A DNA stretch of 64,000 nt, taken from Enterobacteriaceae endosymbiont of Donacia sparganii. GTDB taxonomy: Bacteria > Pseudomonadota > Gammaproteobacteria > Enterobacterales > Enterobacteriaceae. The stretch lies in assembly GCF_012569045.1 (NCBI RefSeq), contig NZ_CP046196.1, positions 191,290 to 255,289 on the forward strand, written 5' to 3'. Positions within the stretch are counted from its first letter, which is position 1. Each line of letters starts with the position of its first letter. The notes beneath the pieces are model-generated. The model made no database searches, had not been told where the DNA came from, and was given only the letters and a program-made list of their open reading frames with translations. Made by a program: the position numbers and the translations under genes. Positions 40,980 to 42,101 of this stretch are shown here, in pieces.

Positions 40980-41264
40980 TTAAAAATTTTTATATATTTT
41001 ATTCTTTTTTTCCCATTCATTTAAAGTATAAGTATTTAATGAAAATGAATGAATATTATTTAATTTATTACCTATAATATGATATATTATTCTATGACGA
41101 GTAATTAATGATTTTTTAATAAAAATATTACTTACAATAATAATTTCTAAATGAGTTATTAAATTTGTTATTTTATTATCATGATCATGACTAATATCAT
41201 TAATTTTTAAAAATATAGGTTGTAATTTAGATGTTATTCTACTTTTTATTTTTTTTATAATCAT
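40980..41264 (-). CDS. bolA: BolA-family protein
   Basis: Small protein with the BolA fold, which works with monothiol glutaredoxins in iron-sulfur trafficking and, in E. coli, also in cell-shape regulation. It has 94 residues against 105 in E. coli. The KLQPIFLKINDISHDH start region, the conserved RHRIIYHIIGNKL segment (His in the central helix, about 59-71) and HSFSLNTYTLNEWEK match E. coli BolA. It heads the clpP-clpX-lon cluster as in E. coli. Identity is clear from position and motifs, though divergence is high. Confidence 0.93.
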   Translation of the reverse strand: MIIKKIKSRITSKLQPIFLKINDISHDHDNKITNLITHLEIIIVSNIFIKKSLITRHRIIYHIIGNKLNNIHSFSLNTYTLNEWEKKNKIYKNF

Positions 41265-41315: not shown

Positions 41316-42101
41316 TTATAAAACATTTTTAATACTAGACATTACTAATTTTATAATACTAGAATTACCAGCTAATATATTTGAAGAATTTTTATAATTA
41401 TAATTTCCAATAAAATCAGTTATTAAACCTCCAGATTCTTTTATTATTAATTCACCAGCAAGTAAATAATTAAAATTATTTACATTATTATTAATATAAC
41501 AATCAATTTTATTTGCTGCTAAATATACTAAATCTAAAGATATAGAACCACTCATTCTAAGTAAAATTAAATTATTTTTAAATAAATTAAATAAATTAAT
41601 ATTATTTTTATTAAAAAAAAAATAATTAGTATTTAAAGCAAATAATAAGTTTTTCTGTTTTATATATTTATCACAACGTAATTTATATCCATTTAATTGA
41701 GCATTTTGTCCTCTTATTGCTGTAAATAAATCATTTTTTAAGGGATCATATACTAAAGAAATTTCAGTTTTTTCTTTTATACAAATAGCAATAGATATTG
41801 AAAAATGAGGTAATTTTTTTAAAAAATTCATAATTCCATCTATAGGATTTATAATCCATACAGTTTTTTTATATTTAAAAATAAAAAGATTTTCTTTACT
41901 TAAAAAAATAATATTTTTTGCATATATATTATAAAATAATTTAGTAATTATATTAATTAAATTTTGATTAATTTTTTTTATAAATATATTAATATCATAA
42001 TTATAATGATTTATATTTATATTTTGTATTTCATAATTTTTAATAATAATATTACCAATATTACGTATTAGACGTATAGCAATATTAAGCATTGGACGCA
42101 T
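41316..42101 (-). CDS. suhB: SuhB, inositol-monophosphatase fold, catalytic residues lost
   Basis: In E. coli SuhB has inositol monophosphatase activity and, separately, joins the NusA-containing rRNA antitermination complex and aids ribosome assembly. It has 261 residues against 267, with the E. coli start MRPMLNIAIR kept. Most metal ligands are changed: the Asp of TNVDK aligns with Asn45, the first Glu of TEE with Lys69, and DPLDGT reads NPIDGI with Asn85 but Asp88 kept; the late Trp-Asp motif reads Phe-Asn. Yet KLPHFSISIA and AGELIIKESGG are well conserved and the frame is open. I infer a pseudo-enzyme kept for its transcription role; slow decay is the alternative. Confidence 0.9.
   Translation of the reverse strand: MRPMLNIAIRLIRNIGNIIIKNYEIQNININHYNYDINIFIKKINQNLINIITKLFYNIYAKNIIFLSKENLFIFKYKKTVWIINPIDGIMNFLKKLPHFSISIAICIKEKTEISLVYDPLKNDLFTAIRGQNAQLNGYKLRCDKYIKQKNLLFALNTNYFFFNKNNINLFNLFKNNLILLRMSGSISLDLVYLAANKIDCYINNNVNNFNYLLAGELIIKESGGLITDFIGNYNYKNSSNILAGNSSIIKLVMSSIKNVL

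Follow-up and report, generated by a model that had tools for sequence, protein, structure and literature searches.

A SuhB with a replaced catalytic site is retained in a reed-beetle endosymbiont, probably as a non-enzymatic factor of rRNA transcription

Why does a symbiont whose genome has shrunk to 471,720 bases on two contigs keep an open suhB gene when the encoded protein appears to have lost the catalytic site of its enzyme family? The question arose from a 64,000-nucleotide stretch of the genome of the Enterobacteriaceae endosymbiont of Donacia sparganii (the window), for which a first-pass annotation had proposed that SuhB survives as a pseudo-enzyme and has kept only its transcription role. 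The frame exists and is intact, and its features in window coordinates are as follows.

41316 to 42101, minus strand: suhB, an intact frame of 261 codons with a broken inositol monophosphatase (IMPase) catalytic site
41967 to 41969, minus strand: Asn45, codon AAT, at the site of the catalytic Asp44
41895 to 41900, minus strand: Ser68 and Lys69, codons AGT AAA, at Glu67-Glu68 of the TEE motif
41847 to 41849, minus strand: Asn85, codon AAT, at the metal ligand Asp84 of DPLDGT
41838 to 41840, minus strand: Asp88, codon GAT, equivalent to Asp87, the sole metal ligand left
41832 to 41834, minus strand: Ile90, codon ATT, at the site of the catalytic Thr89
41469 to 41471, minus strand: Asn211, codon AAT, at the metal ligand Asp212 of the PWD motif

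The gene in the window is a SuhB orthologue of the IMPase fold family PF00459. Its product scores 112.5 bits with Pfam Inositol_P (PF00459), for which the cut-off is 27, and the top solved relatives by sequence are chains of E. coli SuhB (E = 2e-52). PRK10757 (suhB) is the top-scoring NCBI model; its score of 204.8 bits lies under the curated cut-off of 332, a shortfall to be expected because this SuhB is a fast-evolving member. suhB adjoins bolA (40980-41264) and clpP, with nfuA divergent from it, and is the sole PF00459 gene of the genome, other IMPase-family genes being absent. The 5.2-kb plasmid of the same genome is closest to plasmids of the Plateumaris and Macroplea symbionts (best 68% identity over 72% of the length). 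An AlphaFold2 model of the symbiont protein (pTM 0.86, mean pLDDT 86.5) predicts an intact fold. The structures nearest to this model are those of E. coli SuhB (2qfl, 6tqn, 6ib7 and 6ib8, Z 27-28), which cover SuhB alone, SuhB with the AR2 domain of NusA and SuhB in the rrn antitermination complex. The symbiont protein shares with E. coli SuhB its fold, length, N-terminus and residue K251, and the partner proteins are also encoded by the symbiont genome. In contrast, five of the six catalytic residues are replaced, R184 is not conserved and the C-terminus is a few residues shorter. The E. coli SuhB reference used throughout agrees with the solved structures, and the NusA and CysQ references match their orthologues over the full length.

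We scored the six IMPase catalytic residues D44, E67, D84, D87, T89 and D212 (E. coli numbering), at which the symbiont SuhB reads N, S, N, D, I and N, respectively. They are the metal ligands and nucleophile activators of a catalytic inositol monophosphatase, and five are replaced here. Asn had been proposed in place of the catalytic Asp of TNVDK, the first Asp of DPLDGT and the Asp of the late Trp-Asp motif, and all three replacements (D44N, D84N and D212N) were borne out, as was the survival of the second Asp of DPLDG, D87, as the only catalytic residue retained. The Lys assigned to the first Glu of TEE was one column off. In an ungapped register set by the G70 column in relatives together with W81, Ser takes the first position and Lys the second, and neither is Glu. 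Beyond the residues listed in the first-pass annotation, T89, a sixth catalytic residue, is also lost, and W211 is changed to F210. The replacements of D44, D84 and D212 are all Asp to Asn with the codon AAT, a single G-to-A step from GAT. Judged by these residues, the symbiont SuhB has lost the IMPase catalytic site. The losses are not a chance event, since the same ones recur in all 24 members of the genus and purifying selection acts on the frame.

Each of the 24 genomes in the genus carries suhB, with an uninterrupted frame in 23 and a partly masked copy in G008. D44, E67 and D84 are lost in every one of these genomes, and D87 is retained in every one. Neutral evolution of suhB would have spoken against the first reading, and comparison with neutral simulations instead revealed that suhB is clearly under purifying selection in the genus. 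dN/dS was 0.16-0.39 in the six close pairs tested and reached 0.57 in other close pairs; these ratios are probably upper estimates because dS is compressed by the extreme A+T bias. Neutral simulations at matched dS gave a dN/dS near 1.4 and introduced 11-17 stop codons into each pair, whereas the real pairs have none. The neighboring bolA (40980-41264, minus strand) evolves faster than suhB in the genus, with dN/dS often >0.5 by the same crude method.

These data bear on the idea that suhB is slowly dying, its phosphatase useless, its catalytic site decayed and its frame simply not lost yet. A+T-driven changes do run throughout suhB, and the gene is degenerate in G145/G247, missing in a few reduced genomes and absent from Calaphidinae and Phyllaphidinae Buchnera (PMC11188193). 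The dN/dS of 0.16-0.39 without stops contradicts this idea, however, as do the long invariant blocks in SuhB and the presence of the gene in almost all reduced genera and in all 24 genomes of a genus whose reed-beetle host clade is 75-100 million years old (PMC7289800). We consider it decidedly unlikely that the gene is merely on its way out.

To place the symbiont protein among its relatives, we aligned SuhBs of the family, from full-size as well as reduced genomes, and scored them for the six catalytic residues. In genomes of <=1.05 Mb (94 SuhBs), no SuhB retains more than four, and most retain one or none. The SuhB of the Buchnera of Pemphigus obesinymphae (L260) has 1/6. Among the 11 SuhBs from genomes of 1.05-1.9 Mb, one has five residues and none has six. 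Genomes of >=2.6 Mb encode all six in 21/22 cases, the exception being G092 (3.3 Mb). All six are likewise intact in 79/79 SuhBs from named, mostly free-living relatives, which include E. coli and several larger-genome symbionts (Sodalis, Pantoea and Symbiopectobacterium). Loss of the catalytic residues is general in reduced enterobacterial genomes, as read from this alignment, and not special to the symbiont studied here. Identity to E. coli SuhB remains at 65-71% in several of the broken SuhBs; catalysis can therefore go early. For 54 less-diverged SuhBs, a gene tree built with the catalytic columns removed needed six state changes (bootstrap 6-7), two of which are forced by well-supported branches. 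In one larger-genome genus (L169 and L170, from G092 of 3.3 Mb and G213 of 2.1 Mb), SuhB also has a broken catalytic site, and K251 is replaced by Glu and L254 by Gln in the alignment used. Genus g6 (L112, L113 and L114, genomes of ~500 kb) has a DPLDGT motif one residue shorter (WIIN-FEKNIN).

CysQ, a paralogue with the same IMPase fold and the same set of catalytic motifs, served as a control. Unlike SuhB, CysQ has retained every catalytic residue in the same reduced genomes: it is complete (Asp, SEE, DPLDGT/DPMDGT and WD) in 21/21 genomes of <=0.9 Mb. Mutation pressure or generally weak selection therefore fails to explain the state of SuhB. Within the broken SuhBs, identity at the six catalytic positions is 25%, compared with a mean of 60% at the 151 SuhB positions that are invariant in free-living relatives (P = 0.001); the comparison is weaker when limited to Asp/Glu positions (0.26 versus 0.52, P = 0.05). 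K251 and L254 are retained in 65% and 71% of the broken SuhBs, respectively. A different catalytic activity at a rearranged site, either retained or newly acquired, might be imagined, given that D87 is kept here and in slightly more than half of the broken SuhBs and that IMPase-fold proteins accept other phosphoesters. Three of the four metal ligands as well as D44 and T89 are gone, however, and the replacements vary by lineage (N, K, I, S or Y), a pattern that speaks against any conserved new site; we regard such an activity as highly improbable.

In E. coli, the phosphatase activity is unnecessary for relieving the effects of suhB mutants, according to work cited in PMC6614801. SuhB there is required for BoxA antitermination, for NusB association at rRNA genes and for 30S maturation (PMC4807359), its dimer forms a hub that contacts NusA, S10 and NusG (PMC10250234), and suhB is ancestrally essential in Enterobacteriaceae (PMC11481867). 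Simultaneous Ala substitution of K251 and L254 in E. coli SuhB lowers binding to NusA-AR2 by three orders of magnitude (PMC6614801). The corresponding element in the symbiont is the following.

41340 to 41351, minus strand: C-terminal helix with K251 kept (AAA, 41349-41351) and L254 changed to Met (ATG, 41340-41342)

Loss of the NusA-binding surface or absence of the Nus partners would have counted against the earlier proposal. K251 is retained and L254 is conservatively Met, and the genome has NusA with AR2, NusB, NusG and a boxA-boxC element; NusG and Rho, the counterforce, are both present. NusA and NusB are each encoded by all 24 members of the genus. Among AR2-bearing members, AR2 is 72% identical as compared with 48% for AR1, and 18 residues of AR2 but none of AR1 match E. 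coli in every member. Because the RNA polymerase alpha CTD is a further binding partner of AR2 (PMC6614801), retention of this domain is no proof of SuhB binding. In a set of 80 genomes, 4/14 without AR2 (or without NusA) lack suhB, compared with 3/66 with AR2, a contrast (P = 0.016) that ignores kinship among genomes; the three AR2-bearing genomes without suhB count against a Nus-factor role.

The leader of the 16S gene in the first rrn copy matches E. coli boxA-boxC at 33/40 bases with identical spacing (P <= 0.0005), and the element sits below a boxB-like hairpin. It recurs across the genus. The match is weaker in the leader of the second rrn copy (22/40, P about 0.016). This second copy (L148, G000 C1:357482-359052) has a leader unlike the first, with a boxA-like site and a changed boxC region.

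Taken with the selection data, these features make it probable that the orthologous SuhB has lost IMPase catalysis and is retained as a structural Nus factor. The retained role would be the one in transcription of rRNA. The proposed separation of the two roles with the transcription role kept is thereby supported, but it was framed too narrowly, since the split is general in reduced enterobacterial genomes. In the host, the phosphatase would no longer be needed, and G-to-A pressure could convert metal-ligand codons from GAT/GAA to AAT/AAA, with the SuhB scaffold being held by its rRNA role. By analogy with E. coli, the SuhB dimer would bind nut-like leader RNA and NusA and would allow NusB/S10 to associate with the elongating polymerase at boxA, so that rRNA transcription, folding and 30S maturation would be promoted without phosphatase activity. 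The same catalytic loss would have taken place in several lineages of host-restricted Enterobacteriaceae.

A donaciine subclade provides a different view of the NusA contact. In G012, G013, G015 and G017 (NusA loci L133, L131, L125 and L123, respectively), NusA stops at 432-442 codons and AR2 is lost; a decayed AR2 remnant is readable downstream of the NusA stop in G013 and G015, indicating pseudogenization in place. In the subclade leaders recovered (G012, G013, G014 and G017), GGG of boxC is changed to GGA, and 3/4 have a C-to-T change in boxA. The AGN motif that precedes the K251 helix of SuhB is changed to VTN, ATN or ITS. suhB is kept without AR2 in G012, G013, G015 and G017 plus ten other reduced genomes. 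Within the subclade its dN/dS is 0.22-0.50, which is not raised, and SuhB is still constrained. AR2 binding therefore cannot be the sole reason for SuhB retention. Recruitment of E. coli SuhB depends on the RNA element and not on AR2 (PMC6614801), and persistence of SuhB without AR2 is for this reason possible. We rejected the notion that loss of AR2 always entails loss of K251, as K251 is found in 9/15 AR2-less and 52/79 AR2-bearing genomes; G014, whose NusA is masked, was counted among the 15 on the basis of its subclade.

The altered boxA/boxC and pre-K251 residues of this subclade, with SuhB still constrained, and the AR2-independent recruitment in E. coli also fit a broader alternative. 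SuhB might be kept throughout for another non-enzymatic role, as a free chaperone of rRNA or of ribosome assembly or through direct contact with RNA polymerase, NusG or S10, and not for the NusA-AR2/boxA complex. AR2, boxA and boxC are, however, strongly conserved in most members, and suhB loss is more frequent where AR2 is lost; we think this alternative unlikely, though the most plausible of those weighed against a structural Nus factor. A more far-reaching proposal combines both aspects: host restriction predictably, and independently in many lineages, makes SuhB a dedicated non-enzymatic rRNA factor, and the AR2-less donaciine subclade, in which boxA/boxC are being lost, keeps SuhB via an AR2-independent contact or chaperone role. 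We put this combination forward tentatively, as an idea with slightly less than an even chance of holding in full.

It is already known that E. coli can dispense with SuhB activity. The enzymatic and transcription roles are likewise separate in the E. coli SuhB with dispensable phosphatase, in work cited in PMC6614801; that case, as cited there, was shown in the laboratory, whereas the symbiont case arose in nature, has stayed fixed for as long as the host clade has existed and recurs in further lineages. In the open-licence literature searched, we found nothing on SuhB as a pseudoenzyme and no earlier report of repeated natural loss of SuhB catalysis across reduced genomes with CysQ as a control. 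A metabolic model of Buchnera left suhB out as unconnected to biomass (PMC2649895), and symbiont metabolic models should not treat SuhB as a metabolic enzyme. Nature appears to have repeated the laboratory answer on SuhB activity many times, with CysQ as an internal control. The broken SuhBs would constitute a large natural mutant set with which to map the residues important for the rRNA complex, and lineages without AR2, boxA or SuhB may reveal the order of steps in the disassembly of that complex.
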